Of a DNA stretch of 50,882 nt, positions 3,316-45,648 are shown piece after piece. The position numbers and the translations under genes are program-made. Position 1 is the stretch's first letter, and the number at the start of each line of letters is the position of its first letter. The notes beneath the pieces were generated by a model, which was given only the letters and a program-made list of their open reading frames with translations, made no database searches and had not been told where the DNA came from. Source of the stretch: Candidatus Poribacteria bacterium (lineage in GTDB: Bacteria; Poribacteria; WGA-4E; JAJDTR01); the NCBI GenBank assembly GCA_028820655.1, contig JAPPIK010000037.1, positions 32,869-83,750 on the forward strand, in the 5' to 3' direction.

Positions 3316-4035
3316 ATGTTTGAACGATTTTCAAAACTTTTCGCTTTGATTGTCATTTTTATACTGACTTGCGGAAGCAGTCTTGCTGCGAGCGGTTCGT
3401 CGAGCGAGAAACCTGAAAAGGGAATGGTGAAGTGGCAGAATAAATCCTACCATGGCAAGCGAACGGCTAGCGGTGAAAGGCACAATCATCGAGACCTTGT
3501 GGCGGCTCATCCGACGCTGCCTTTTGACACCTATCTTAAAGTCGAAGATCCCAGTACCGGGAAAATGGCGGTCGTACGGGTTAATGACCGATGTCCGCAA
3601 AGGAGTGACAGATTGCTTGTTGTTTCGTGGGGTGCTGCGAGATTACTGGGTATCCTTGAGCGCGGCACTGCTAAGATGCAAATCAGCGGCGCAGAGACTT
3701 TTACAGGTTTTGCCTCTTGGTACGGCAAACCATTTCACGGGAGGAAGACGGCAAATGGCGAAGTGTATGACATGGACGCCATGACAGCCGCCCACAAGGA
3801 ATTGCCCTTCAACACACGGGTGCGCGTGGTCAACGTAAAAACCGGAAAATCTGTCGTCGTCAGAATCAATGACCGAGGGCCATTTATCGAGGGACGGATT
3901 ATCGATCTCTCCCGACGCGCGGGGGGCAAACTCGGCATGTTCTTTACGGGCACGATGAAGGTTCGGGTTGAAATCTTGCCGCCGCTCAAGAAGACCCGCA
4001 GGCTAGCTAAGGCGACGAAGGATGGCAAACGATAA
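3316..4035 (+). CDS. RlpA-family protein with two double-psi beta-barrels
   Basis: An exported 239-residue protein. Residues 1-25 are a signal peptide (hydrophobic core, then SLAASG). Two RlpA-like double-psi beta-barrel domains follow in tandem. The second, about residues 133-215, is canonical: GFASWYGKPFHGRKTANGE, AAHKELPFNT, and VRINDRGPF. The first, about 36-118, is a diverged copy: SYHGKRTASGE, AAHPTLPFDT, VRVNDRCP. Both keep the His of AAH and the Asp of NDR, which correspond to the catalytic pair of RlpA lytic transglycosylases. RlpA proteins act on glycan strands lacking peptide stems at the septum. There is no SPOR domain. SD-like AAGGAC precedes the ATG. Its last 14 bases overlap pyrF. 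Murein binding or cleavage is likely; cellular role is inferred from the family. Confidence 0.85.
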   Translation: MFERFSKLFALIVIFILTCGSSLAASGSSSEKPEKGMVKWQNKSYHGKRTASGERHNHRDLVAAHPTLPFDTYLKVEDPSTGKMAVVRVNDRCPQRSDRLLVVSWGAARLLGILERGTAKMQISGAETFTGFASWYGKPFHGRKTANGEVYDMDAMTAAHKELPFNTRVRVVNVKTGKSVVVRINDRGPFIEGRIIDLSRRAGGKLGMFFTGTMKVRVEILPPLKKTRRLAKATKDGKR

Positions 4036-4747
4036 ACTAATCGTTGCGCTTGATTTCGACCTCCTCCATTCGGCGAATCAAACCATCGACCAACTCGGCG
4101 ACTTCGTAGAGTGGTTCAAGATTGGCGGGCAACTTTTTACCGCCGCCGGGCCTACCTCGGTTGAAACCTTCCGCAATCTGGGGAAAAAGGTTTTCCTGGA
4201 CCTCAAATTTCACGACATCCCTAACACAGTGGCGGGCGCTGTCGCCGCGGGTGCGAAAACGGGGGCGAATATGATAAACATGCACGCCTCCGGTGGGCTT
4301 GAGATGATGCGCGCTGCGAGGGAGGCTGCCGACATGCAAGCCGACGCGCTCGAAATCCCGAGGCCACTGTTGCTTGGTGTGACAATACTTACCAGCATTG
4401 ACGAATGGAGTTTCCAGCGGGGCTTCGACACAAAGCGGAAACTGACGGATCAGGTCGCCTATCTGGCGGAACTGTCCCAAAAGGCGGGATTAGATGGCGT
4501 GGTTGCGTCGCCGCTGGAGATCGAGACGGTTCGCCGCGTCTGCGGCGAGAGATTCCTGATCGTCACCCCCGGCGTACGACCTCGGTGGACGGCGGCTGGA
4601 GATCAACGCCGCATCACGACGCCGTCGGAAGCCGTAGATGCCGGAGCGGATTACATCGTCGTCGGTCGCCCCATCACCGGAGCCGGCAATCCGCGCGAGG
4701 CGGCAAAGAACATCCTGCAAGAAATTCAAGACCGTAGTGACCCGTAG
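4022..4747 (+). CDS. pyrF: Orotidine 5'-phosphate decarboxylase
   Basis: Converts OMP to UMP in pyrimidine synthesis. The family's active-site string is present as DLKFHDIPNT, with Asp60, Lys62 and Asp65 forming the expected charged network. The N-terminus IVALDF and the phosphate-gripping end TPGVRP...DYIVVGRPIT are also typical. The length of 241 residues is normal for the short bacterial class. The ATG overlaps the end of the RlpA-like gene by 14 bases, which suggests translational coupling. No other pyr gene is nearby. Confidence 0.96.
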   Translation: MANDKLIVALDFDLLHSANQTIDQLGDFVEWFKIGGQLFTAAGPTSVETFRNLGKKVFLDLKFHDIPNTVAGAVAAGAKTGANMINMHASGGLEMMRAAREAADMQADALEIPRPLLLGVTILTSIDEWSFQRGFDTKRKLTDQVAYLAELSQKAGLDGVVASPLEIETVRRVCGERFLIVTPGVRPRWTAAGDQRRITTPSEAVDAGADYIVVGRPITGAGNPREAAKNILQEIQDRSDP

Positions 4748-4764
4748 CTTGGGGAGTGGTGCCG

Positions 4765-5427
4765 ATGACGCGAGCAGAAGCCTTACGCATCTTGGGATTG
4801 CAGCCCGATGCAACACAGGCCGAGGCGAGGAAGGCGCACCGCCAACTCGTCAAGGCCGTACACCCCGACAAGAACCCGGATCCAAATGCTCGGCACCTTT
4901 TTCATCTTGTTCAGGAAGCGTATGAATTGATAAGCACAACCCAAGAACAGGTACGGGTAGGCGAAAGAGAAGCAAGAGCGAGGGCAGAGAGAGAATACCG
5001 GGAGAGGGAGGCGAGGGCGAGAGCCGAATGGGAAGCTAAGGAAAGAGCCTACAAAGAGAGACGTGCAAAAGAGACTAGGGAGAGACAGGCGCGAGAAGCA
5101 CAGCGGAAATGGGAACGACAGCGCACCGACGCCGCCATCGGAATTACCGGTGCCCTCGGTTGTTCCTACAAAGTCCCAATGCTTGTAATGGCGGTCATAT
5201 GCCCCGGCATATCTTTAGTGTTATGTTACATACTTGCAGCAATGCTTGATTTCGAGTGGATATTTTCTTTGGCTCCATTGGTAGCCGTTGGATCGCTCAT
5301 TTTAGCTTATCGTTTATGGGAACTTGCTGATAAGCGCGTAAAGGAATATCAGTTGAGAGAATTTGACAAGCACAATCCACCTCCATCTAAAGGTGCAAAA
5401 GAGGAGATGGGAGATAATGCCGTTTAA
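4765..5427 (+). CDS. Membrane J-domain protein (paralogue 1)
   Basis: The first 60 residues are a J domain with HPD at 33-35 (AVHPDKNPDPNARHLF), the motif that stimulates Hsp70 ATPase. A strongly charged Arg/Glu/Ala coiled coil follows (about 65-125), then two hydrophobic segments (about 133-190), and a tail ending QLREFDKHNPPPSKG. The start at ATG 4765 is preferred over GTG 4756, because GGGGAG lies in front of it and the neighbouring paralogue begins with the same residues MTRAEALRILGL. About 220 residues. No zinc-finger or substrate-binding domain of true DnaJ is present, so it is a J-like protein that may bring DnaK to the membrane. Its partner and purpose are unknown. Next gene is a larger paralogue. 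Confidence 0.85.
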   Translation: MTRAEALRILGLQPDATQAEARKAHRQLVKAVHPDKNPDPNARHLFHLVQEAYELISTTQEQVRVGEREARARAEREYREREARARAEWEAKERAYKERRAKETRERQAREAQRKWERQRTDAAIGITGALGCSYKVPMLVMAVICPGISLVLCYILAAMLDFEWIFSLAPLVAVGSLILAYRLWELADKRVKEYQLREFDKHNPPPSKGAKEEMGDNAV

Positions 5428-5802
5428 GTTCGACTTTGTACAAAACTGAAGTCTGTAGGGTGCAATCAAGCGAGTGGATAGCGAGTGCGATAGAGATCTT
5501 CCGCGCACCAGCCTTTGAGAGCGCCCACGGCGCGACAGGTGTATAGTAAATCGAGTCGCCCACGTCAAACGCCAGTGGGATCAAGCGAGTAGATGGCGAG
5601 CGCGGCAAAGATCTTCACAGGTTGCATCGGTATCAGCGCCGGTGACTTTTTCAGGGGGTTCAGATTCTTATGCCTTTCACCCTTCCGGGGTTTACAAGGC
5701 TAGTGTAGGAATTCCAACTCGCGACGAAAACCCTCTCTCGGCAAACTATCAAACGTGGATATTTTACCTGTTATTCGAACAGAAACTTAGAGAGAGACGC
5801 CG
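5428..5802. repeat. Repeat-filled gap between the two J-protein genes
   Basis: 375 bases without a gene. It holds two copies of the dispersed block (about 5466-5505 and 5579-5620, both ATCAAGCGAGT...GAT...AAGATCTT type) and a short GC-rich stretch between. The duplication that produced the two J-protein genes is therefore separated by host repeats. I see no clear terminator. Confidence 0.55.
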
Positions 5803-6879
5803 ATGACGCGAGCAGAAGCCTTGCGCATCTTGGGATTGGAACCCGACGCAACTCCGATAGAGGTGAAGCGAGCGTATCGTCAACTCGTGATAGCTGTGCA
5901 CCCCGACAAGAACCCAGCCCCGAATGCGCGGCACCTCTTTCAGCTAGTTCAAGAGGCGTATGAATTTATCTCTACCATTGAGCAACAGGAACACGCAAGG
6001 GAAGCTAGGGATAGGGCGGAAAGACAGGCTAAAGCACGAACTGCCAGAGAAAAGGCTGAAAGAGAAGCTAGACGGAAAGAGGAAAGGGAAAGGGCAGAAA
6101 GGGATGCTCGGGACAGGGCGGAAAGACAGGCTAAAGCACGAGCTGCCAGAGAAAGGGCTGAAAGAGAAGCTAAACAGAAGGAAGAGAGGGAAAGAGCGAA
6201 CAGAGAGAGATTGGAAAGAGAAGTTAAGGAGAAAGCGGCGCAAGAAACAGAAGCACAAAGGGAATGGGAGCGACAACGCGAAGAGGCAGCCAAAATGGGC
6301 TTCGGTGGCTGCTTTGTAGGCCTAATACTACTCATTATGACAATACCAACTTGCATAGCATTTAATCGTTTGATGCACATGATTGGCCTTGGTGGTGAAG
6401 CATTTTTCAGCGTAATGAGTATTGCAGTACCTGCAATTATATACGGCGCACTGTGGTTGGGCAGCACTATTAATGAGCTCATGAAGAAGCATCAATTGAG
6501 AGAATTTGACGAAAATCATCCAATGCCATCCAAAGGTAAAACTGTGCCGAAAGAAGTAGAAGCACAAAAGGAATGGGAGCGGCAACGCGCAGAGGCAGCG
6601 GAACTGGGTTGGGGTAGAGGCTTTGTAGTCCTAGTACCATTCATTATGATAATACCAACTTGCATAGTATTTTACCGTTTGATGCGAATGATTGGCCTCG
6701 GTGGGGGAGCAATTTTCGGCGTAATGATAATTGCAGTACCTGCAATTATGTTCGGCGCTCTGTGGTTGGGCGGCACAATTAGTGAGCTTATTGAGAAGCA
6801 TCAATTGAGAAAATTTGACAAAAATCATCCAACGCCATCCAAAGGTAAAACGGAGGAGGCGACAGATGAAACCGCTTAA
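5803..6879 (+). CDS. Membrane J-domain protein with duplicated membrane module (paralogue 2)
   Basis: 358 residues. The J domain (1-60, HPD in AVHPDKNPAPNARHLF) is nearly identical to that of the upstream gene. A long Arg/Glu/Lys coiled coil follows (about 65-155) and contains its own internal duplication: DRAERQAKAR recurs after about 36 residues. Two tandem copies of a module of about 90 residues come next. Each starts with WERQR.EAA, has two hydrophobic spans (IPTCI.F and AVPAI..GALWLG) and ends HQLR.FD.NHP.PSKGK. The same ending closes the upstream paralogue once. Gene duplication was therefore followed by internal module duplication. Likely an inner-membrane co-chaperone for DnaK; the topology predicts four spans. 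No recognised substrate domain. Confidence 0.85.
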   Translation: MTRAEALRILGLEPDATPIEVKRAYRQLVIAVHPDKNPAPNARHLFQLVQEAYEFISTIEQQEHAREARDRAERQAKARTAREKAEREARRKEERERAERDARDRAERQAKARAARERAEREAKQKEERERANRERLEREVKEKAAQETEAQREWERQREEAAKMGFGGCFVGLILLIMTIPTCIAFNRLMHMIGLGGEAFFSVMSIAVPAIIYGALWLGSTINELMKKHQLREFDENHPMPSKGKTVPKEVEAQKEWERQRAEAAELGWGRGFVVLVPFIMIIPTCIVFYRLMRMIGLGGGAIFGVMIIAVPAIMFGALWLGGTISELIEKHQLRKFDKNHPTPSKGKTEEATDETA

Positions 6880-14100: not shown

Positions 14101-14840
14101 TGCAAAAACTCCTGAGTTACAGCCACTGTCCGACTAAATTTTACCTCAACCATAGACTCGGACTGTCGGCCGGGACCGTACTCGCCATGGAAGAAGATGA
14201 GTCGGTTGCGAAAGACTTCGAAGGGAGTCCAATAGATTGGGTGGTTCGCAGAGTGCTTTCTCAACTAAGAACACCTGAGGATTGCGAGCAAGATTTGGGC
14301 GAGTTAATCAATACTGCCGCACACGCCTTATCAGCCATGTTGGCAGAGGATGAGGCGGTTCTCCACGTGAGGCGCTTCTTGGATTCCGATGTGGGCAAGC
14401 TGGCGTTAGCTGCCGGTGATAGTTTTTGCGAACACGAAATCCACGCGCTACTCGGCGATCACGTTGTCCACGGAATAGTTGATCGCCTATTTAAAGGTGC
14501 CAATGGGCTGTGGCAGATCGTTGATTATGAAACCAATCAATTCGATGCGTCCGAGATTGAGACGTGGATTGACTACTACCGCCCCAAGGTCGAGTTGAAC
14601 GCAATTTTGGTTCATCGGCTTTACCCGGAGCAGTCGGTGATACCGGCAACAATCTTCTTTACCTCACTTGCTGAAGCTTGTCCTATATTCCTCAACGCGG
14701 ACGAGTTGGATAGTATCGAACAACAGTGGATTAAAAAACTCGAAACCCTCCAGAGGGGGAATTTCGAGAAAAACAGAGGCCACTGTCCGTTTTGCCCATA
14801 CTTCGTTGATGGACGGTGCCTGCTCCCCGATCCGGAGTAG
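11196..14840 (+). CDS. AddA/UvrD-like helicase with a degenerate Fe-S nuclease domain
   Basis: A 1214-residue superfamily-1A helicase related to AddA and RecB. All helicase motifs are present: Walker A AGAGSGKT (21-28), FTQKAAAEL, DEYQDTN (Asp379), GDRKQSIYGFRGAD, VMTVHGAKGLEFPVV, and LFYVAVTRARDRL. The C-terminal 240 residues match RecB-type nucleases: GIVDRLF (Asp1096), then DYET where the family has DYKT, so the catalytic lysine is Glu1112. Four cysteines, Cys978 (HCPTKF) and Cys1197/1200/1208 (CPFCPYFVDGRC), fit the Fe-S clamp known from AddB and Cas4. The partner addB is not in the window. The UAG stop is part of a GTAG-hairpin. Likely DNA repair or recombination; nuclease activity is doubtful. 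Confidence 0.88.
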   Translation: MRYTSNQKKAHDLKRHIGVTAGAGSGKTEVLANRYLRILLESDASVREIAAITFTQKAAAELKKRVLKKIEEKTASSAGNDSLLSKLETIREEFTAAPISTIHEFCARILRQFPVRGIGSGFDVLQGIDQWLMLRDTVGSTLRSIAYRPRGDETREKLANLLRIFGRRKLESIFTKLLNHREVTNRLSDSLYRESEEQILTVWEGFISAELGQSVEEQFPIEHWLKSLKAVLKVAKGIAAIKVGDLTKQLQNAANGSAALPILSEISLLILTRAGDIAKQDFLGRGVDTTEVEADITFLTEAARYFRSYSPLADDDAFLIHVTQPLLAVYDEIHERYTNTKLQQGVLDFEDLQIEVRNLLRDDAIRRNLARQYSYIMIDEYQDTNRLQYDIIKPLVSDFETGNLFVVGDRKQSIYGFRGADVRIFGQTLTGIGAHQSGKIDDFIWEAESLQANAAEKQGDIHLPEAFRFLRNLVGFVNLVFGHVMGDGRLNEFEVAYEPLIMCRKNEVPGDVELLIGGESCARENELIARRIRHLIQSEDLVWDRNTEEPRPIQYGDIAILLRSRTRLPDIESALIQARIPYSVASGIGFYQRQEIYDICNYLQFMEDPTSDVALIGILRGPFFGISDGELFEISQYSDQGSLWERAKHYVGENSASVTISNDHSQVQDSGRRSGVQPSDFIVFACETLENHLKIRHLLPIATLIRRIVNDTGMIGTLSVGLSGGQRWANYEKLLSIAREFDKSEYSELSGFIERLNLLIEEEDREGQAAIDSSEDVVQVMTVHGAKGLEFPVVILPYLNRKFKFDPEPIIDDEIGIGFSPANPDKNYEDSLPSISGAMKTRQNHKTVAEEKRLFYVAVTRARDRLILSGSMDSNDKPGRNSWFGWLLNALELTQTPSESRIEFPVTIEALTEDSRTPISFNLPIRIFRSIEEMDLSNETPMPALTPVDFPEIRIQSLESPSANEYLSVQKLLSYSHCPTKFYLNHRLGLSAGTVLAMEEDESVAKDFEGSPIDWVVRRVLSQLRTPEDCEQDLGELINTAAHALSAMLAEDEAVLHVRRFLDSDVGKLALAAGDSFCEHEIHALLGDHVVHGIVDRLFKGANGLWQIVDYETNQFDASEIETWIDYYRPKVELNAILVHRLYPEQSVIPATIFFTSLAEACPIFLNADELDSIEQQWIKKLETLQRGNFEKNRGHCPFCPYFVDGRCLLPDPE

Positions 14841-14858
14841 CACAATTCATTGTGCGTC
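14837..14858. repeat. GTAG-hairpin overlapping the helicase stop codon
   Basis: GTAGCACAATTCATTGTGCG: arms GCACAAT and ATTGTGC around TC. The TAG inside GTAG is the stop codon of the helicase gene. Same sequence as the arrays at 34.25 kb and 50.6 kb. Confidence 0.65.
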
Positions 14859-14896
14859 TCTCCGTTTCGAGGAACAGTCCCGTTACCAAAACTTAG

Positions 14897-14924
14897 CTGA
14901 CTTTTCACCTCAATATGATATAAT
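14897..14924 (+). promoter_or_regulatory. Candidate promoter of the TonB-dependent receptor
   Basis: CTGACT (14897-14902), a 16-bp spacer and a perfect TATAAT (14919-14924) in an AT-rich stretch about 100 bases before the receptor ATG. The -10 box is exact, the -35 is 4 of 6. Confidence 0.45.
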
Positions 14925-15022
14925 ATCGATTACACATTGAACATTGGCTGTGGGATTCTCCCGCCCCAACATCTCTATCTCAAATCTCATCCAAAATCTC
15001 CCGGAATTCTTGGACAGAAAAT

Positions 15023-17260
15023 ATGAACTTTGGCAAGCAACTATGCGCTCTCGCTTCCCTGATCACGCTGTCGATCTCCTCTATAGCCGCTACCGACGAG
15101 GAAGCCGAAGAGAGCATTATGATGGAAGAGGTGGTGGTTACCGCCCGCAAGCGCGAGCAGCGCTCTTTCGAGGTGCCGCTCTCCGTTTCGACTATTCGTG
15201 GCGAGAAATCCGATGCCCTGCGCTCATCTGGCGTGGATGTACGATTCTTGTCGAACCGCACGCCCAGTCTGCAGATGGAGTCCTCGTTCGGACGTGTCTT
15301 CCCGCGCTTTTACATCCGCGGTCTAGGCAATACCGACTTCGACCTCAACGCTTCGCAGTCGGTTTCGGTTCTTCACGACGGCGTCGTGCTCGAAAACGCT
15401 CTGTTGAAGGGGTTCCCCGCCTTCGACCTCGACCGGATTGAGGTGCTGCGGGGACCGCAAGGCACGCTTTTTGGACGCAACACGCCTGCAGGCGCCGTAA
15501 AGTTTGAGTCCGCGCGTCCCAACCGGAACCTAGAGGGCTACGGGCGGTTGAGTTACGGGCGGTTCAACAGCGTTAATTTCGAGGGAGCCGTGTCTGGCTC
15601 GCTTGTCCCGTCCGTGCTCGCCGCGCGGCTATCGCTTCTCACCCAGCGGCGCGGCGACTGGGTAGATAACGAGCATACGGGAGAAGAAAACGTCCTGGGA
15701 GGACATCGAGACCTGGCCGGACGTCTGCAACTGTTGTGGACCCCCACGCCGGAGTTGGAGGCATGGTTCAAGTACCACACTCGCGACCTTGATGGCACTG
15801 CACGCCTGTTTCGTGCCAATATCCTGTTGCAAGATGAAGGGGATTTGGTGCCGGATTTTGCTCGTGACGGTATCGCGCACGACGGACGCAATGAGCAAAC
15901 CCTGAGAACGCACGGCTTGGCGGCTGAAGTGCGTTACGATATAGGGAACTTCCAACTGGTTTCACTGACGGGTCTTGAGCGGCTAACCACGTTTTCTCGC
16001 GGCGACATAGACGGCGGGTACGGTGCGGTGTTCAGCCCGCCGAGCGGCCCGGGTGAGATCCCCTTCCCGTCCGAAACCGCGTCCGGCATTCCGGCCCTGC
16101 GCCAGTTCAGCCAGGAAGTCCGCCTGATGAGTCCCGCAGCGCGCCGCCTCGCCTATCAGTTTGGCGTGTACTATTTCCAAGAGTTCGTGGAGATGGAGGA
16201 TTTCAACTACAACACCCTGGCTGGAGGTACTTTGGATGGGATGGTGCGCCAGGAGCAGGAAGCCACGGCGCTAGCGGCGTTCGCCGCAATGAGTTTCCAG
16301 TGGCTCGAAGATGTGGAGGTGAGTGCAGGGCTGCGATTGTCTGATGATTCGAAAGATTATTACGCATGGCGAGAAGCTGCACCTGCCGTAACCGGCGCAG
16401 GTCCGCTCGGCCCCGTTCAGCAGAACCCTCAAGCTAGGGTATGGAGCGGCGATTTGAGTCTACGCTATCGTGCGGCGCCCGGCGTGCAGACCTATCTGCG
16501 CGCGGCGCGGGGATTTCGTGCCCCCAGCATTCAGGGACGTTTGCTGTTTGGCGACGCCGTTACCTTGGCGGACACGGAGACCATACTCTCGGTTGAAGGA
16601 GGCACGAAGTTACGCTTGTGGGAACAACGGCTGCACCTGAATTTGGCGGCGTTCCAATACTTAATGCAGGACCAGCAACTCACCGCGGTGGGCGGCGAAA
16701 CCAATTTTAATCGCTTGGTGAACGCCGAGAGCACGGTTGGACGCGGGGTTGAGGCGGAGCTTACCCTGATTCCGATGACGTCATTGGAGGTTTCAGCCGG
16801 ACTTAGCTACAACCGCACGCGTATTGATGATCCGAAATTGGCGATACAGGGCTGCGGTGCGCCGTGTACGGTTCTGGACCCGCCCGCCTCCGCCGATGCG
16901 GGCACGTTTTCAATCGACGGGAACGGACTTCCGCAGGCGCCGGGCTGGATTGCCGATGTGACGGCTCGCTACGTTCTCGCGCTTCCCGCAGGTGCACACC
17001 TTGTTGCCTCAACGGACTGGGCTTACCGCAGCCGAGTGCGGTTCTTCCTCTACGATTCCGTGGAATTCGCCGACGATTGGATGCTAGAGGGCGGGGTGCG
17101 ACTGGCGTATATGTTACCGAATGGCGACATAGAGGTGGCGCTTTCGGGGCGCAATATTCTCAACGACACCTCTCCAACGGGCGGCATCGATTTCAACAAT
17201 CTGACCGGCTATGTTAATGAACCTCGGTATTGGAACCTCGAACTGATACGGCGCTTTTGA
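15023..17260 (+). CDS. TonB-dependent outer-membrane receptor
   Basis: 745 residues. A signal peptide (1-23) is followed by a TonB box region EEVVVTARKREQ. The plug domain (about 45-160) has VFPRFYIRGLG, LDRIEVLRGPQGTLFGRNTPAGAVKF. The rest is a 22-strand-type barrel ending in aromatic Phe (LELIRRF), the usual signal for outer-membrane insertion. The best matches I recall are iron-complex and small-nutrient receptors of marine Proteobacteria, so transfer is possible. GC content and codon use look higher than in the flanking genes. No tonB, exbBD or siderophore gene is nearby. Substrate cannot be stated. Confidence 0.93.
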   Translation: MNFGKQLCALASLITLSISSIAATDEEAEESIMMEEVVVTARKREQRSFEVPLSVSTIRGEKSDALRSSGVDVRFLSNRTPSLQMESSFGRVFPRFYIRGLGNTDFDLNASQSVSVLHDGVVLENALLKGFPAFDLDRIEVLRGPQGTLFGRNTPAGAVKFESARPNRNLEGYGRLSYGRFNSVNFEGAVSGSLVPSVLAARLSLLTQRRGDWVDNEHTGEENVLGGHRDLAGRLQLLWTPTPELEAWFKYHTRDLDGTARLFRANILLQDEGDLVPDFARDGIAHDGRNEQTLRTHGLAAEVRYDIGNFQLVSLTGLERLTTFSRGDIDGGYGAVFSPPSGPGEIPFPSETASGIPALRQFSQEVRLMSPAARRLAYQFGVYYFQEFVEMEDFNYNTLAGGTLDGMVRQEQEATALAAFAAMSFQWLEDVEVSAGLRLSDDSKDYYAWREAAPAVTGAGPLGPVQQNPQARVWSGDLSLRYRAAPGVQTYLRAARGFRAPSIQGRLLFGDAVTLADTETILSVEGGTKLRLWEQRLHLNLAAFQYLMQDQQLTAVGGETNFNRLVNAESTVGRGVEAELTLIPMTSLEVSAGLSYNRTRIDDPKLAIQGCGAPCTVLDPPASADAGTFSIDGNGLPQAPGWIADVTARYVLALPAGAHLVASTDWAYRSRVRFFLYDSVEFADDWMLEGGVRLAYMLPNGDIEVALSGRNILNDTSPTGGIDFNNLTGYVNEPRYWNLELIRRF

Positions 17261-36984: not shown

Positions 36985-39072
36985 ATGAAAAAACTACCCG
37001 CCATCGCCTGTGTGATTCTGTTGTCTCTGTCCCTCTCTGCGAACGCCGATCAGGTCTACTACCAAATCAAGCTGTCTGGCAACCCCGTCGGCTACATCTC
37101 TTACGAGGTGAAATCCGGCCCCGAAGATCTGACGATGCAAACGACCGTGCTGTTCAACATCGGTCAAAGCGAGCTGAACCAGAGGGTCAAGTTGACGGCG
37201 AACACCCGCCTCAACTCCCGGACACGGTTGCCGATTGAATACCGCCTTTCCACCTACATCAACGGCTTCACTCAATCTACGGTCGAGACCGCGTTTGAGG
37301 GCGACACGGCAACCCAACGAATCGTCGCTGGTGCCCAGGATTTCGATAACGAGATTTTCCTTCCCGAGCCTACCTATCTCGTTGACGACAATTTCAGGAT
37401 TGACCACTACAATGTCCTTCTCCGACAGTTCGACTTCAGGAAGCGTGGTACGCAGTCGTTCAATGTTCTTACCCCGCTCGCCGTGCCGCGCCAACCCAAA
37501 GCCGTCGAGTTGCGGTTGACGTGGGTTGGCGGCGAGAAACTTAACGTCGGCGAGGATACCTACCAAACCGAATGGCTTCAAGCGCACACTGGCAGTCTGG
37601 AGATGGATTTCTGGTTTGATAAACAGAGCCGGCAGATTGTGAAATGGGATATCCCTTCACAAAAGACCGAGATTGTCTTGGCGGATCATTCCGTCCTCCC
37701 CATGCAAGATGTTATAGAGCATCGCTTAGCCGTGTTGCGTCAAAACCCCGATTTGCCTCGCCTGTCCGTCAATCAAGAACTAGGAACCACGGCAGACCTC
37801 AAAGCGCTGCAAATGCGCCTCGATCTTCAAGTTGTCGCATCAGGTGAACTGGGGCTTGACGTTTCGAATCAGTGGTTTGAGGGTAAGGTGAATCAAAATG
37901 CCGAAACTGCGCATCTTCGTGGCGTACTTAACGTCAAATCGTATCGTCGTCCTGACCGGGCGCCGGGCCCGATACCCATACCGGATGAACGCCCGCTCGA
38001 ATCTCACGGGCAGATTGAAGCGAAGGCGAAGGAAATCACAACCGGAATTGACTCGAACTACCAAAAAGTGAAGGCGCTTGTGGAATGGGTGGCGAGGGAA
38101 ATAACCTACGATAGCACAACAACCTCAGCCCTTGAGTGTCTCGCGAATGAAAAAGGCGATGCACTGTCTAAATCTCGGCTTGCGGTCGAACTAATCCGTT
38201 CGACTCGGGCACCCGCGAAGATAATCGGGGGACTCATTTACACGAATAACGGTGTCTTTGTTCAACACCATTGGATAGAGGTAGACGTCGAATTCGGCGG
38301 AGGATGGATGGCGATGGATCCCCTCACCGGCGAGACGGAAGGGATCGGCGCGGCGCACGTTGCCTTGTGGCGCGGGAACGGCCGCTTGGCGGAGAAACCG
38401 GGCGAGATGGAAGTACTCGATTTTCAGAGCGCCATGATTACCTGGCAAGACCTGATTCCGCTGCAAGTCGGCGAACGAAACCAATATACCATTGAGCGCG
38501 ACGGGGGACCTATCGGCGTGAGCGCGAATCGCGTCGAACGAATTATCACCCATGACGGCATCCAATGCTACCAAATCGAGGGAGCGTTATCGCTTGATGA
38601 TGAGGTCCGTGGCCAAATTACCGCTCATTCGCGTCTATATCTCACGCTTAACGGGAAGGCGCTGTATTTTCAATCGGAGATGGACGTAAACGGCGAGGTG
38701 AAATCCTATGAATATACCCGCGAAGGGACTCGATTTCGATTCAAGAGGGACGATGGGCGATACAAGATGTGGGTCGAGAAACTCCCCCATTTCATCGGAG
38801 ACTTTTCATTCTGGGGGTGGGACATTATGTTTCGCCAGCAGGAACTTTCGACCGAATTGCAGTGGGAAGTTGATCTGATCGATCCGCGGGACGCGGCGCT
38901 TCGTTCCCTCCAGGTCGTCGTCGAAGATGCCGAAGAGATTGTCGTGGACGACCAAGAGATGAGTTGCTTCCGCATAAATGTTGACGGGCAGTTATTCTGG
39001 GTGTCCTCCGTCGGACGCCTCATCCGCTACCACGACCCCGAACGCAACCTCACCGCCGAGTTGGACCTTTAA
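36985..39072 (+). CDS. Exported transglutaminase-fold protein without catalytic Cys
   Basis: 695 residues. A signal peptide (1-21, ending SANA) leads to a beta-rich region of about 320 residues of the kind that precedes transglutaminase-like domains. The transglutaminase core (about 345-455) has VEWVAREITYD, KGDALSKSRLAVELIRSTRAPAKIIGG, HHWIEVDVEFGGGWMAMDP. The family has GDC where this protein has GDA, so the nucleophile is Ala393; His428 and Asp445 remain. The C-terminal 230 residues are beta-rich and unassigned. It is probably a periplasmic binding or structural protein rather than a peptidase. Confidence 0.82.
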   Translation: MKKLPAIACVILLSLSLSANADQVYYQIKLSGNPVGYISYEVKSGPEDLTMQTTVLFNIGQSELNQRVKLTANTRLNSRTRLPIEYRLSTYINGFTQSTVETAFEGDTATQRIVAGAQDFDNEIFLPEPTYLVDDNFRIDHYNVLLRQFDFRKRGTQSFNVLTPLAVPRQPKAVELRLTWVGGEKLNVGEDTYQTEWLQAHTGSLEMDFWFDKQSRQIVKWDIPSQKTEIVLADHSVLPMQDVIEHRLAVLRQNPDLPRLSVNQELGTTADLKALQMRLDLQVVASGELGLDVSNQWFEGKVNQNAETAHLRGVLNVKSYRRPDRAPGPIPIPDERPLESHGQIEAKAKEITTGIDSNYQKVKALVEWVAREITYDSTTTSALECLANEKGDALSKSRLAVELIRSTRAPAKIIGGLIYTNNGVFVQHHWIEVDVEFGGGWMAMDPLTGETEGIGAAHVALWRGNGRLAEKPGEMEVLDFQSAMITWQDLIPLQVGERNQYTIERDGGPIGVSANRVERIITHDGIQCYQIEGALSLDDEVRGQITAHSRLYLTLNGKALYFQSEMDVNGEVKSYEYTREGTRFRFKRDDGRYKMWVEKLPHFIGDFSFWGWDIMFRQQELSTELQWEVDLIDPRDAALRSLQVVVEDAEEIVVDDQEMSCFRINVDGQLFWVSSVGRLIRYHDPERNLTAELDL

Positions 39073-39087
39073 TACCTCCCGTGGGGT

Positions 39088-39362
39088 GGAATCAAACGAC
39101 TGAATAAGGAGTGCGATAGCTAATCCTCCGCCCACCGCTTCTTGTAGGGTGCGCATCGCGCACCAGCATTTGAAAGTCCCGAGGAGCTACGGCGCTTAAT
39201 TTGGGTTGAACGGAACGCCGTATAACGCCAAACCCGTAGGCGGGAATCAAGTGAGTGAATAGCGAGTGATCAAGTGACCGAATAGGGAACGCGATAGAAA
39301 TCCAGCAAGTGAGTGAATAGCGAACGCGGTAGAACTCCCATAGAGATCCATCAACGGACATT
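39088..39362. repeat. Dispersed-repeat cluster left of the IS
   Basis: Contains the ATCAAGTGAGTGAATAGCGA type block twice, the GTAG-hairpin GTAGGGTGCGCATCGCGCACC at 39144-39164, and a stub of the MITE end (TTGGGTTGAACGG at 39201-39213 with AAACCCGTAGG at 39230-39240). Confidence 0.65.
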
Positions 39363-39391
39363 CTATAGTATGAGTGTCAAGAAAAAAGGTC

Positions 39392-40600
39392 TCATGTGGC
39401 AGTTGAGTTCTTGTGACGATAGAACGTGTCATCTCGAAATAGAGCAAAGATGACCCTTATGAGTTGGCGAGCCAAACACTTGACCGCTTGCCAATGGGAA
39501 AGCCCTGCTTTCCGTTTCTTGAGGTAATACGTGGTAGAAGATGCACAATAGCGACGATTGGATTCGGCTATCTGTATGATAGCGTCTTTAGCTACTTTAT
39601 TGGCACGATGCGTGGTTCTGTGGAATCCCTTTCGCTTGCCGGAGTCGTCGGGGACAGGGGAAAGGCCACAGTACATAGCTAGTTTCGCCTCGGTTTTAAA
39701 TCGATTGATGTTGCATACTTCGCCCAGCAGACGAGCGGCGGTGATCACAGAAGCTCCGGGAATTGAAGCGATACGTTGAATCTCCAATGATTCCTTGGCT
39801 AACGTTTTGAGTTGCTTCTCCAACTGAGTTAGGTTCTGCGCAAGAGTGAGGATCTGCTGTGCGAGTGTTTGGACAACAAGCGCCTTCGTATCTAGATGCG
39901 AGGGATAGCGATGTACAGATTCGGCAAGTTGCATTAGTTTGTCAGCCGATCGTCGTCCTAATCGGTTCTTGCTATGTTTGCCGATGAACACGTTTAATTC
40001 CTCTACAGATGAGTTTCGGACGTGTTCGGGTGTTGGATACTCAACAAGCAGGTGCAAGAATGTCTTGCTGGTGATGCTTGAACAGATGGAATCGGTAACC
40101 AATTCCGGGAAATAGCTCATCAATTCACAGCGCAATTGATTGGTGAACTGGGTTTTGGTCTTGGAAAACGCCTTATATGTCCTCGACAAATTCTTGAACT
40201 CGGCACTATTCTTCTGATGCTGATGCGCCGGAATCTTGGCATGTTGAGTTCGGAGGAAGTCGGCGATCACATAGGCATCGTAGTCGTCGGTCTTATGGGG
40301 AGCGCCTAAGAAATCCTTATACCGATTCACTGCTGTCGGGTGCAATGGCTTGAACAGAATGGCTTCATTAAGGAGGTATTCATCAAGTGGAGCTAAATTC
40401 CCATCATGTCCCTCGGAGGCCACGATAGGTATCAACCCATCTGCCTTGAGTTGAAGCAGTTTGTCAATGAGTTGCTGGTAGCCTTGATGCGTCTGATTAA
40501 TGGCAAAGTTAGCCAGCTTGTTTTCCGCTTCATCAATGATACACACGGCGATGTTGTAGTGTCCAATATCCAGACCGACAAAACAAAAGGTATTCATCAT
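39392..40600 (-). CDS. IS110-family transposase
   Basis: 402 residues. The N-terminal RuvC-like domain has the catalytic acids Asp11 (FVGLDIGHYN), Glu63 (ASEGHDGN), and Asp105/Asp108 (HKTDDYDAYVIADFLR), the DEDD set of the family. The C-terminal Tnp20 domain begins with IPGASVITAARLLGEV and contains YCGLSPVPDDSGKRKGFHR, with the Ser region conserved. AGAGGAG precedes the ATG. The reading frame is complete, so the element may be active. Such transposases use a bridge RNA made from the element's own end. Confidence 0.93.
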   Translation of the reverse strand: MMNTFCFVGLDIGHYNIAVCIIDEAENKLANFAINQTHQGYQQLIDKLLQLKADGLIPIVASEGHDGNLAPLDEYLLNEAILFKPLHPTAVNRYKDFLGAPHKTDDYDAYVIADFLRTQHAKIPAHQHQKNSAEFKNLSRTYKAFSKTKTQFTNQLRCELMSYFPELVTDSICSSITSKTFLHLLVEYPTPEHVRNSSVEELNVFIGKHSKNRLGRRSADKLMQLAESVHRYPSHLDTKALVVQTLAQQILTLAQNLTQLEKQLKTLAKESLEIQRIASIPGASVITAARLLGEVCNINRFKTEAKLAMYCGLSPVPDDSGKRKGFHRTTHRANKVAKDAIIQIAESNRRYCASSTTYYLKKRKAGLSHWQAVKCLARQLIRVIFALFRDDTFYRHKNSTAT

Positions 40601-40676
40601 TCGACTCCTCTGTGGTAGAGTTATGGCATTCCTATCAAGAGCGATTATCGCAACATTCTTATTGTGTCATTTGGTA

Positions 40677-40745
40677 TTCCCAAAGCGGTGACAGTCCGTT
40701 GATGGCGACCATGCGCAGAGTGAACCAGCCATGCCGCTTTGGAAA
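40677..40745 (-). ncRNA. Candidate bridge RNA hairpin of the IS110 element
   Basis: Upstream of the transposase, TTCCCAAAGCGG (40677-40688) pairs with CCGCTTTGGAAA (40734-40745) with one mismatch. Inside it, ATGGC and GCCAT form a second stem. The result is a long hairpin with a 13-base one-sided internal loop and a 21-base end loop. IS110 elements of this layout encode a bridge RNA between the left end and the gene, with loops that pair to donor and target. The fold and place fit; no alignment was possible. Confidence 0.4.
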
Positions 40746-40922
40746 TAAGTTTACCACAGATGAGTACCGTTTCCCTCAGTCTTGTCCGTACATATATTAT
40801 AGGAGTGAATAGCGATGGCGGTAGAAAATCCCCTTGCCCTGCCGCGCAATACCAAATGTCGAGCTAAACCTAACTCGTGATCGGCACGGTACTGGAATCC
40901 TCCAGCGGTGTTTTCAGAATTA

Positions 40923-41086
40923 CGTAGGTTGGGTTGAACCGTAATAGAGGAATGTTTGTCTCGTTCAAATCGCGCTCCATTCTCCCAGCAAACTGCCATA
41001 CTAGATTTTGCTAGTGAATCCCAACACCTCAACCGACTCGACGCGCTTGTTATAGTGAGTGGGATTTCCTTCCAACCCGACCTACG
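40923..41086 (+). mobile_element. MITE-like element, shorter copy
   Basis: 164 bp, starting CGTAGGTTGGGTTGAACC and ending in the inverted, slightly decayed TTCCAACCCGACCTACG. It matches the element at 41731 in order and sequence but lacks about 30 bp near the right end. No coding capacity. Confidence 0.65.
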
Positions 41087-41253
41087 CTGCGAACGCACAT
41101 TTATGGGCAGATTCGCCAAAAATTAAATGGTTTTCCCCAAAATGAAAAATTGAACTTGAGACTTACCGCCTGACAGGCCATAATAAACACAATCGCGCGG
41201 AAAATCTAGATTGGGACGTGCTGGCGGTTTGCAATCGCCAAAAGGTGAAACCC

Positions 41254-41670
41254 ATGAAATTTATTCTCTTTCTTCCAATACTCTTTTGTGCAATAGCGTT
41301 TCCAGCACTCGCCGAACTAACGCCTCAAGACCTTGATAAGATCCGCTTGATTGTTAAGGACGAAGTCAAAGCGGAACTCACGGCAGTCAAGCAGGAACTA
41401 AAAACGGACATTACCGCAACCCACACAAAAATTGAAGCCTTGGATACCCGGCTTCAATCCGTAGGGCAGAGCGTTTCATGGGTACGTGGGAAACTTGATA
41501 GTCTTGATAAACATATCAATTGGCTGATGGCGCTAATTGTGGTAGCCGTCGGTATCCCGCAAGTCATCATTGCGTGGCGCAGTAGAAAGGATCGCGCACA
41601 GGAGAGACAGATTGAAGCACTCGCACGGGAAATCGAAATACTAAAACAACAGCGGATTGTTAGTCCTTGA
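41254..41670 (+). CDS. Small exported or membrane protein with coiled coil
   Basis: 138 residues. An N-terminal signal (MKFILFLPILFCAIAFPALA), a helical coiled-coil part (about 25-90, KIRLIVKDEVKAELTAVKQ onward), a membrane span (about 90-110, INWLMALIVVAVGIPQVIIAW), then a basic-acidic cytoplasmic helix. I do not recognise it. The start at 41254 has AAAAGGTG in front. The gene lies between two MITE copies in the same orientation and might have been moved with them. Confidence 0.65.
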   Translation: MKFILFLPILFCAIAFPALAELTPQDLDKIRLIVKDEVKAELTAVKQELKTDITATHTKIEALDTRLQSVGQSVSWVRGKLDSLDKHINWLMALIVVAVGIPQVIIAWRSRKDRAQERQIEALAREIEILKQQRIVSP

Positions 41671-41730
41671 GAATCTATGCTGACGATCGGAAGAAGAAAG
41701 GTAGAGCCACCCGATGAATCAGTTACGGTA

Positions 41731-41924
41731 CGTAGGTTGGGTTGAACGGCAATAGACGAATATTTGTCACGTTCAAATAGCGCTCCCTTCTTCCAGCAAA
41801 CTGTCTCACCTGTTACGGCTAGTAAAACCCAACACCTCAACCGATTCGACGCGCATGTTACGGTGAGTTGGGTTTCCAGATTCCCTCTGCATTTGATTAC
41901 GGGTTCCGTTCAACCCAACCTACG
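41731..41924 (+). mobile_element. MITE-like element, full copy
   Basis: 194 bp with perfect 19-bp inverted ends: CGTAGGTTGGGTTGAACGG at 41731-41749 and its exact complement at 41906-41924. No transposase inside. Stubs of the same ends are at 36050 and 39201. The family resembles MITEs moved by an unlinked transposase. Confidence 0.75.
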
Positions 41925-41958
41925 CAGCGAGACTGGTAAAAACTCGTTACTTCTGGGC

Positions 41959-42108
41959 ATCTCACAAAATCTTCATCAACTTCTCCGTCGCCTTCAACCC
42001 GGAATCCGTAAGTATCGAAACAACCGTATCACCCCGACCGATAACCCCCTCCTCCACAAACCTGTCAAACCCCGTCACCACAACCACGGAAGTCAACTCA
42101 ATGAACCC
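41959..42108 (-). pseudogene. Detached copy of the threonine synthase 3' end
   Basis: About 147 bases match 43314-43460 with about 11 differences. On the minus strand it reads FDRFVEEGVIGRGDTVVSIL and TDSGLKATEKLMKIL with a stop, the C-terminus of the neighbouring threonine synthase. The conserved YVEPTSA and TGSG have decayed to FIELTSV and TDSG. It lies just beyond the VapC gene. Confidence 0.85.
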
Positions 42109-42159
42109 ATGCCCCGGTAATGGAGAGTCCACTGAAATTGGTTTAACACGGAATTTCCA

Positions 42160-42576
42160 TCACGCCGACCAATCCTCTACCTTCAATCCCAATCCGACTA
42201 TTCTCTGAAAATCACTATCCGATGTCACGAGTATTGCATCAATAGCCAAAGCTGTCGCAGCAATCCAAAGGTCGCATTCATCTAGAATGGTTCCGTGTTG
42301 ATGCGCCGCAACTTTAATCTGCGCATACGCCTCGCCAACATAATCCGGAATTGGGTCGCACGGAACTATAGAAAACACCGCATTTGCTTTCTGCTCAAGA
42401 TCTCGTCGTCGTCTTCCGGCAGGGAGTCGGAAAAGCCCGAATAAGATCTCTCCCTTTACCATAGGACAAATACAGGGATAGTCTGATTCGGCCAGAGATT
42501 CCAGTCGTTCTTTGACTTCCGAGGAATCTTGCATGAGAAAAGTCAACATAGAGGTATCTAGAAGATACTTATTCAT
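42160..42576 (-). CDS. vapC: VapC-like PIN-domain toxin
   Basis: 138 residues with a PIN ribonuclease site: Asp7 (LLDTSML), Glu43 (KGEILFGL), Asp102 (DECDLWIAA) and Asp120/122 (VTSDSDF). Toxins of this class cut tRNA or rRNA. The ATG overlaps the stop of the antitoxin gene by four bases (ATGA), the usual coupling. The pair lies between two copies of the thrC 3' end. Confidence 0.9.
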   Translation of the reverse strand: MNKYLLDTSMLTFLMQDSSEVKERLESLAESDYPCICPMVKGEILFGLFRLPAGRRRRDLEQKANAVFSIVPCDPIPDYVGEAYAQIKVAAHQHGTILDECDLWIAATALAIDAILVTSDSDFQRIVGLGLKVEDWSA

Positions 42577-42860
42577 GACTTCTCACCTTTTTCCGGCTCT
42601 AAAGGCGAAGTGGAATTTACGGGCATCTTCCCTTCCTCAATGGACTGACGAAACACTTCCACGTCTTTATGAGAGAGATGTGGCGGACTTTCCATTGCTT
42701 CGATAAGGCGCTGTGCTATTAGATTCTGTCCGTTTTCCGGCTTGGGTTTCTTCCTTGATTTCCATGTTAAAAATTCAAGATAGTCTTTTAACTGTTTTGC
42801 CTCCGGCTCAGCTAATTGCACTACCGTTTGAATTATCCATTCCTTCGTAGAAGATTGCAT
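42573..42860 (-). CDS. vapB: Antitoxin of the VapBC pair
   Basis: 95 residues. The first 35 form a helical segment (STKEWIIQTVVQLAEPEAKQLKDYL) and a basic linker follows. The C-terminal part, rich in Glu, Pro and Ser, is the likely toxin-wrapping arm. It lacks an obvious AbrB or ribbon-helix-helix signature, so antitoxin status rests on position and overlap with the PIN gene. GGAGG lies about ten bases before the ATG. Confidence 0.75.
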   Translation of the reverse strand: MQSSTKEWIIQTVVQLAEPEAKQLKDYLEFLTWKSRKKPKPENGQNLIAQRLIEAMESPPHLSHKDVEVFRQSIEEGKMPVNSTSPLEPEKGEKS

Positions 42861-43313
42861 CAGTTTGGGCCTCCTTGATAATCACACTGGATCTATGTAG
42901 CTGCGTCAGTCAAGATTTCCCTGATCGCATTGGATTTTCAAATAGTTGTGAATATAGTCGGTTTTGAATAACTGTTAGCGAGCCTTTTTGGTGCTTGCAT
43001 CAAGATAATCATATTTGTATTTCGTTCGAAGAATGGAAGTATCGCTCTTGGAAAACATGCTTGGCTAACATAATGGTTTCCCATTTCCGCGCCTCTCTGG
43101 TTATAATTGACTACGGCGTGATTGTCACTCCCCGTCACCTTGTTCCGGTGAATTCAGAGCGGAAGTTTATAAGAAATCTAGTGCTATGCTCTCATAGGCT
43201 TTGGTGGCTGTCAAGTACGGTTTCTCCCCTTATGCGTTGCCACGAGGGAATTCGCTCTCTTTCCAGTGGTATTTGATTCAAAGGGTTGGGGACAAATGTA
43301 CGTCCTTGGCTAG
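42861..43313. other. Intergenic region between VapB and thrC
   Basis: 450 bases with no supportable gene. It should contain the vapBC promoter. No hairpin repeat or MITE piece was seen. Confidence 0.4.
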
Positions 43314-43316
43314 ATC

Positions 43317-44441
43317 TCACAAAATCTTCATCAACTTCTCCGTCGCCTTCAACCCGGACCCCGTAAGTATCGAAACAACCGTATCACCCCGACCGATAAC
43401 CCTCTCCTCCACAAACCTGTCAAACGCCTTCACCACAGCCGCGGAAGTCGGCTCGACGTAAACTCCCCTTGCCGCAAGCACTTTAATCCCGGCTACAATA
43501 TCCTCCTCGCTCACCACGGTGAACGCCCCGTCCGTTTCTCGCTGCGCTTCGAGAATCATCTCGCCCCGAATCGGATATTCCGCCGCAATCCCCTCGGCAA
43601 GTGTCTCATACCTCTGCGGCGTGCGCTTAACTCTCCTGTTTTCGCTGTACGCCGTGTAAATTGGCGAGCACGCCGCCGACTGCACGCCCAGTAAGCGGGG
43701 CATTTTCTCCACAATTCCCCCGGCATACAACTCGCCGAACCCAATGTATAAGCCGAGGTAGACACTCCCGAACCCGATAGGGCAGATCACATGATCGGGC
43801 GCGCTCCAACCAAGCTGCTCGGCGATCTCGAACGCGACCGTTTTTGTGCCCTCCAGAAAAAACGGGTTCCAGTTGTGAGAGGCGTAATAGGTGGTCTCCG
43901 CCGCCTCAAGCACAGCCTCGGTGGTCGCCGCGCGGTTACCCTTGATGAGCTTCAGCCGCCCGCCGTAGACGCCGATCTGCGCGAGTTTTCCCTTCGAGGT
44001 GGACGCGGGACAGTAGATCGTGCAGCCGATTCCCGCTCTCGCGCTATAGGCGGCTACCGCCGCGCCCGCATTCCCCGACGAATCCTCGACCACCTCCCGC
44101 ACATCGAGTTCAACCAGTTTGGAGAGTAGCACCGACGCTCCCCGGTCCTTGTACGATCCGGTCGCGGCAATGAAGTCCAACTTCAGGTAGTGTCCGCGCC
44201 CGGGATCATCGAACGGAACGAGCGGCGTCATACCTTCGCCAAGCGACACGATTGACGCGTCATCCTCAACGGGGATCGCCTCGCGATAGCGCCAAAGCGT
44301 ACTGCCTCGCCCCGAAATCTCGTCGAGCGGGAAAGTCATCTTCTCCCTCTTGAGATTCAGTACGCCCCCGCAATCGCATTGGTAGCGGAGGGTGTCTACG
44401 GGGTACGTTCTGTTACAGGCGTGGCAACAATACTCGGTCAT
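43317..44441 (-). CDS. thrC: Threonine synthase
   Basis: A fold-type II PLP enzyme that converts O-phosphohomoserine to threonine. The N-terminus has a zinc-ribbon-like CCHACNRTY...CDCGG. The PLP lysine is in TGSYKDRGASV. Phosphate and cofactor loops are SSGNAGAAVAAYSA and TGSGLK. 374 residues; YVEPTSAA is typical of the archaeal-like threonine synthase class. Related threonine dehydratases or cysteate synthase cannot be fully excluded. A second copy of its last 147 bases lies 1355 bases away. Confidence 0.82.
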   Translation of the reverse strand: MTEYCCHACNRTYPVDTLRYQCDCGGVLNLKREKMTFPLDEISGRGSTLWRYREAIPVEDDASIVSLGEGMTPLVPFDDPGRGHYLKLDFIAATGSYKDRGASVLLSKLVELDVREVVEDSSGNAGAAVAAYSARAGIGCTIYCPASTSKGKLAQIGVYGGRLKLIKGNRAATTEAVLEAAETTYYASHNWNPFFLEGTKTVAFEIAEQLGWSAPDHVICPIGFGSVYLGLYIGFGELYAGGIVEKMPRLLGVQSAACSPIYTAYSENRRVKRTPQRYETLAEGIAAEYPIRGEMILEAQRETDGAFTVVSEEDIVAGIKVLAARGVYVEPTSAAVVKAFDRFVEERVIGRGDTVVSILTGSGLKATEKLMKIL

Positions 44442-44649: not shown

Positions 44650-45648
44650 TCACTCATCCCACGGCAACGGCACGCCAAGTCTCTGACTCACCGCACGCGC
44701 CGACTGCTGCTCGTCCGCACCGTAACGAATGCCCTCACGCCGGTGCATCTCCATAAGTTCCGCTTCCATCGCACCCGGAAGCAACGCGCGGTCATACCCC
44801 GGCATCGGCTCGTATGTCTCGCGCACGCCCCTCACCATCCGGTCAACCTCCGCTTTCAAGACCGCCTCCGGCATCACGGAGTCGATACGGATGGCGAGAA
44901 CCATTCCCCCCAACCGTGCCCCGCCCCATTTGGCGGTGTCCGCAGGCGGCGGTTCGGTGAATCCGGTCAACGCGCCGCCCAGCAGACTGGCAACCGCCGT
45001 GTACCCGATGCTCTTGAAAAACGCCGCCGGGATCAGCGACAGAAGTTCGTCGAATTCGGGTCCGCGCTGGTAATCCGCCAATATGCACGTTGCGGCATCG
45101 AGCACAACCGGCGGCTCCTCTCCGGACGGAATGGCAAAACAGATGGGCGGATTGCCGAAATAACCGAGTTGCGCTCCGCGCCCTCCCGCTCTGCCCTGAT
45201 CGGAATAGCCCTGCACCGAGAACCCGATACAACCAGCCTCGCTGCACATTCGCGCATAGTGACCTGCCGAGCCGTAATGCCCTATATAGCGCACAAGCCC
45301 TATCCCCATACCCAACTCCTTCGCCTTCACGATTGCACCTTCTGCCGCGCGCACCATCGGCAGATAGCCGAGCGTGCCGTTCCCGTCCAGTACCACTGCC
45401 GTCGGCGACTCACGGATTACGCGGATGTCAGGCTGTGGATTGTGGCTTCCAGTCTCGAATCCGCTGCAGTAGCCGTTGGTGGTCCGCGTGCCGTGCGTGC
45501 GCACGCCGCGCAGGTCCGAGTTGACCAAGAGCCGGCTAATCAGCGCCGCGTGCTCGTTAGACAATCCGGCTCTCTCATAACAAGCCGTACAAAAAGCGAG
45601 CAACCGGCCTTCCCGTACCCGCAAAAATGATTCCGGGGGTCGATTCAT
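44650..45648 (-). CDS. Ldh-family oxidoreductase, second member
   Basis: 332 residues. Family blocks are SDLRGVRTHGTRTTNGY (the SHG of the family is THG), IGHYGSAGHYARMC, FGNPPICFAIPSGEE and VVLDAATCILADYQRG. It is more diverged and shorter than the member at 20457; its coenzyme-binding middle (AGGRGAQLGYFG) keeps only part of the usual pattern. Substrate is unknown. The plus-strand frames over it are shadows. Confidence 0.8.
   Translation of the reverse strand: MNRPPESFLRVREGRLLAFCTACYERAGLSNEHAALISRLLVNSDLRGVRTHGTRTTNGYCSGFETGSHNPQPDIRVIRESPTAVVLDGNGTLGYLPMVRAAEGAIVKAKELGMGIGLVRYIGHYGSAGHYARMCSEAGCIGFSVQGYSDQGRAGGRGAQLGYFGNPPICFAIPSGEEPPVVLDAATCILADYQRGPEFDELLSLIPAAFFKSIGYTAVASLLGGALTGFTEPPPADTAKWGGARLGGMVLAIRIDSVMPEAVLKAEVDRMVRGVRETYEPMPGYDRALLPGAMEAELMEMHRREGIRYGADEQQSARAVSQRLGVPLPWDE

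Follow-up and report, generated by a model that had tools for sequence, protein, structure and literature searches.

In the Poribacteria genome analyzed here, a segment of about 1.2 kb carrying a vapBC toxin-antitoxin pair was most probably (with a probability of roughly 0.7) inserted at the 3' end of thrC, the threonine synthase gene, in one event, illegitimate or one-sided homologous, that also duplicated about 147 bp of its target. The best fit among known processes is insertion with long target duplication. A congener carries the empty site, and the two tails of thrC that now flank the segment have decayed asymmetrically.

The vapBC segment and the repeated thrC tail

The window, which is the whole stretch of 50,882 nucleotides that was analyzed, is part of a 108-kb contig in a 5.88-Mb Poribacteria assembly. 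Read along the minus strand, a gene for an Ldh_2-type dehydrogenase is followed by thrC, a leader with no recognised gene, a 95-aa open reading frame and vapC; after a further 54 bp, the second thrC tail is reached, and then intergenic sequence with palindromic repeats (Table 1). Promoter-like sites in this region were no more frequent than expected by chance, and no terminator-like site was found in it. The Ldh_2 family dehydrogenase gene upstream of thrC (44650-45648) gave a good Pfam profile match over its first half only and may have undergone an internal deletion.

Table 1. Features at the thrC-vapBC locus, in coordinates of the window.
Feature	Position	Strand	Evidence
thrC, threonine synthase, intact	43317..44441	-	PALP E 1.2e-69; threonine synthase models; 85% DNA identity to the single-copy thrC of G001
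Inner thrC tail copy (functional 3' end)	43314..43460	-	Direct repeat; 2 private differences/148
Inserted segment, ~1.2 kb	42106..43313	-	Missing at the G001 site
Insert leader, 453 bp, unique sequence, 44% G+C	42861..43313	-	Short chance-level matches only in 71 genomes of the order
Putative antitoxin VapB, 95 aa	42573..42860	-	4-nt overlap with the vapC start; in other Poribacteria a related sequence lies before vapC; no family model matched (Pfam, NCBIfam)
VapC toxin, PIN domain	42160..42576	-	Pfam PIN; PDB VapC; acidic residues D7, E43, D102, D120, D122 kept in alignment
Outer thrC tail copy (original gene end, displaced and decaying)	41959..42105	-	Followed by sequence orthologous to that downstream of G001 thrC; 8 of its 11 private differences at codon positions 1 and 2

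The first-pass annotation had placed the end of thrC at two positions, 1355 bases apart and about 92% identical, and alignment agreed with it at 91-95%. The direct repeat 41959-42099/43314-43454, with that same spacing, was 94% identical over 141 nt; a self-search aligned the tail copies at 95% over 136 nt (E = 9e-56), and a gapless comparison counted 13 differences in 148 nt (91%). The ends of the repeat are sharp. Sequence on either side of it was no more similar than shuffled sequence, so the repeat must end near 41959/43314 and 42106/43461, and its 3' boundary falls 3 nt past the thrC stop codon. A third copy of the tail was not found in the whole 5.88-Mb assembly. An assembly echo was ruled out as the source of the repeat, since the copies differ at 13 sites.

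The annotation of a VapB-VapC pair between the tails was strengthened for the toxin by family matches, to Pfam PIN (1.3e-14) and to a solved VapC structure (PDB chain 6nkl, 4e-7); the protein has the PIN domain and conserved acidic residues of a type II toxin. The 95-aa open reading frame gave no match to Pfam or NCBIfam models and is named putative VapB by its position only; relatives in Poribacteria keep its C-terminal half in front of vapC. In the congener G001 (L024 1890-3485), this conserved C-terminal stretch forms the end of a 531-aa open reading frame directly before vapC, which suggests that the antitoxin may be fused there to a large protein.

Neither the list of open reading frames nor a Pfam scan gave a recombinase in the insert, and Pfam scans of the main open reading frames of the window gave no tyrosine or serine recombinase. 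Searches of the insert for element ends, terminal inverted repeats among them, returned short, chance-like matches only, and the insert holds no further thrC sequence. No source of its leader was found in the 71 genomes of the order, and no donor of its vapBC was found either.

The empty site and the age of the tails

G001 (Candidatus Poribacteria) was the sole congener compared, and the empty site rests on this one genome together with more distant relatives. The thrC locus of G001 (L004) has one thrC tail, as had been anticipated for relatives without vapBC; there is no vapBC at this site, and the flanking genes are the same. The 4.1 kb around its thrC aligned to the window in separate blocks. 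These covered the neighbouring upstream gene, thrC as far as the inner tail, and a stretch that includes the outer tail and continues past it (41098-42093); what follows the inner tail had no match at the G001 thrC site. Because the sequence downstream of G001 thrC is orthologous to that after the outer tail, as the upstream genes are to each other, the outer tail occupies the ancestral position and is the original thrC end, and the segment in between was added along with one tail copy. In nine relatives, thrC had just one tail over 4-20 kb of DNA downstream, and no insertion hotspot was seen there. The orthologous G001 site also lacks an IS110-family transposase gene (39392-40600, within 39072-41097) and a copy of a palindromic intergenic repeat of 149 bp (40921-41069, 83% like 41729-41877), which points to a second insertion 2-4 kb from vapBC.

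Comparison of the inner, outer and G001 tails revealed 23 variable sites, of which 11 set the outer copy apart and 2 the inner one. The 10 sites common to both tails versus G001 argue that the duplication most likely postdates the split from G001. The private differences of the outer copy mostly change amino acids, and conserved residues have been lost from it (EPTS to ELTS, KAF to TGF, and TGSG to TDSG), as the earlier reading had stated in general terms. The excess of private differences in the outer copy (p = 0.02, or p = 0.18 without the first 7 bases), most of which affect codon positions 1 and 2, is in keeping with the loss of constraint expected of a decaying relic. Additionally, the differences between the tails are clustered, with 10 in the first 36 bp versus 3 in the remaining 112 (p = 4e-5, or p = 0.0025 without the first 7 bases). 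This clustering is not predicted by simple neutral decay; the distal part may have undergone gene conversion, or the origin may be mosaic, through crossover with a diverged copy.

Relatives of vapBC are common elsewhere in Poribacteria, with near full-length matches at 68-74% DNA identity, and were never found beside thrC. Those VapC relatives that carry names belong to Candidatus Poribacteria; matches in plasmids reached 33% identity only, and there were none in viral contigs and phage records. The vapBC of G001 was rejected as the direct source, being 72% identical, at another location and within different flanks; the region around it finds a counterpart in this genome only from 3.2 kb away on one side. 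No gene-tail repeats flanked the other Poribacteria vapBC loci, one of which (L072) is flanked by a multi-copy intergenic repeat. No similar vapBC island at another gene end, for which the first-pass annotation had advised a search, was found, and no integrase either. A second vapC relative (L077 15395-16310, G000 C60) has two in-frame stop codons and adjoins a gene that starts like that of a TIR-domain protein, an identification made by eye only.

Routes by which the segment may have entered

An insert that contains no recombinase and is flanked by repeats of host sequence, here 147 bp of thrC, matches insertion with long target duplication. For the joining of the DNA we infer, as the most likely step, either homology-facilitated illegitimate recombination or a switch of template during replication. 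A template switch would have copied the thrC tail and then the vapBC donor before re-entering thrC about 147 bp upstream. With one tail copy fused to the gene body, thrC remains intact; the original tail, which now lies beyond vapC, is free to decay, and retention of the insert would be favoured by the addictive nature of the toxin-antitoxin pair. The lineage-specific bases of the displaced tail recur in the inner one, which thus seems to have been copied from the host. The first-pass proposal that the unit entered by recombination at the gene end and restored it is upheld by the G001 empty site as far as entry is concerned; restoration by an element bringing a foreign tail is not supported, given these host bases.

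Integration of a circular molecule by a Campbell-type event, with a thrC tail of its own as attachment or homology site and with either an integrase acting in trans or a single crossover, is unlikely, although several observations agree with it. The diverged 5' part of the outer copy would be the element's version and the 3' part the chromosome's, so that a crossover in the near-identical 112 bp would concentrate the differences in the outer copy's first 36 bp, where they were observed; the duplication stops just beyond the stop codon, and the gene was left intact, as at gene-end attachment sites. However, three of the sites common to the inner and outer tails versus G001 fall within the diverged part, which therefore seems derived from this lineage's own tail. 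The missing integrase, in the insert and as tyrosine or serine recombinase among the main window reading frames, speaks against such an event too, as do the flanks of the vapBC homologues and the single thrC tails, without a hotspot, in relatives.

Somewhat less probable again is that thrC was first duplicated in tandem, vapBC then inserted and most of the second copy lost, a course that requires three events. The same genome does have tandem paralogue arrays, and in one of them HicBA (L086 5659-6212) lies inside a wrecked paralogue with a duplicated tail 94% identical, but the vapBC insert holds no more of thrC. A full tandem thrC pair without vapBC, the arrangement that the first-pass annotation had named as the sign of simple duplication and decay, was encountered neither in G001 nor in any other relative searched. 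That the IS110 element moved or captured the segment is very improbable: compared with the G001 site, which lacks this element too, there are two insertions within 4 kb, but no element end or shared sequence was found at the vapBC junctions, and IS110 is not known to make 147-bp duplications. Insertion of the vapBC segment with duplication of its thrC target remains our preferred reading.

Toxin loci elsewhere in the genome and comparison with known systems

In stretches totalling about 1.19 Mb of this genome that were sampled for local direct repeats, other such repeats were also found to flank short inserts. At L086 (G000 C8) 4022-6517, HicB-like and HicA genes lie between two TolB-like gene tails (94%), inside the remains of tandem paralogues. 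At 14138-16774 of the same locus, a direct duplication of 776 bp (97%), running from the last part of one TolB-like gene into the beginning of the next, flanks a 1076-bp insert (14914-15989) with two small overlapping open reading frames that belong to no known family. A search with three toxin families located 32 toxin loci in this genome. Clear direct repeats within 1.5 kb flank four of these (L140, L142, L152 and L154), versus 1.15% of sampled positions, a background that includes the window and the repeat-rich contig C8; in two of the four cases the repeats are intergenic, and one locus belongs to a tandem paralogue array. This enrichment is suggestive, and only a hint. It is improbable that Poribacteria toxin-antitoxin pairs are mobile on their own, without a recombinase, and integrate with long target duplications. 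The vapBC pair at thrC is a clear but ordinary case of a known kind of insertion, here with a toxin-antitoxin pair. Its value is that of a dated, polarised example in which original and new tail can be told apart, and in which a small toxin-antitoxin pair has settled without breaking a biosynthetic gene.

The locus resembles integrative elements that use the 3' end of a gene, in that the gene is intact and a second copy of its tail lies at the far end of the insert. It differs from them in having no integrase, a repeat longer than the usual attachment cores and no hotspot in relatives. In Vibrio T6SS effector-immunity clusters, homology-facilitated illegitimate recombination has been proposed to push old gene ends downstream (PMC5361080). 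As in those arrays, new cargo stands behind a gene whose old 3' end has been displaced downstream as a fragment; the new gene end is foreign there, whereas here it matches the host's own tail.

Insertion with long and variable target duplications, around 100 bp in size, has been reported for restriction-modification systems (Nobusato et al. 2000; Furuta et al. 2010; reviewed in PMC3874152), and the original paper on long target duplication is cited in a toxin-antitoxin review (PMC2654758) and in PMC3031569. At thrC, likewise, the empty site has one copy of the repeat, the repeat is host sequence, and no known mobile element carries vapBC. The cargo and host differ from those of the restriction-modification insertions, being a VapBC toxin-antitoxin pair and a Poribacterium. 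Shared with them are an addiction-type module, an empty site recognised by genome comparison, host DNA directly duplicated over about 100 bp and the lack of a linked recombinase. Cases of this kind support the spread of addiction modules by insertion with long target duplication, which has so far been argued mainly for restriction-modification systems.
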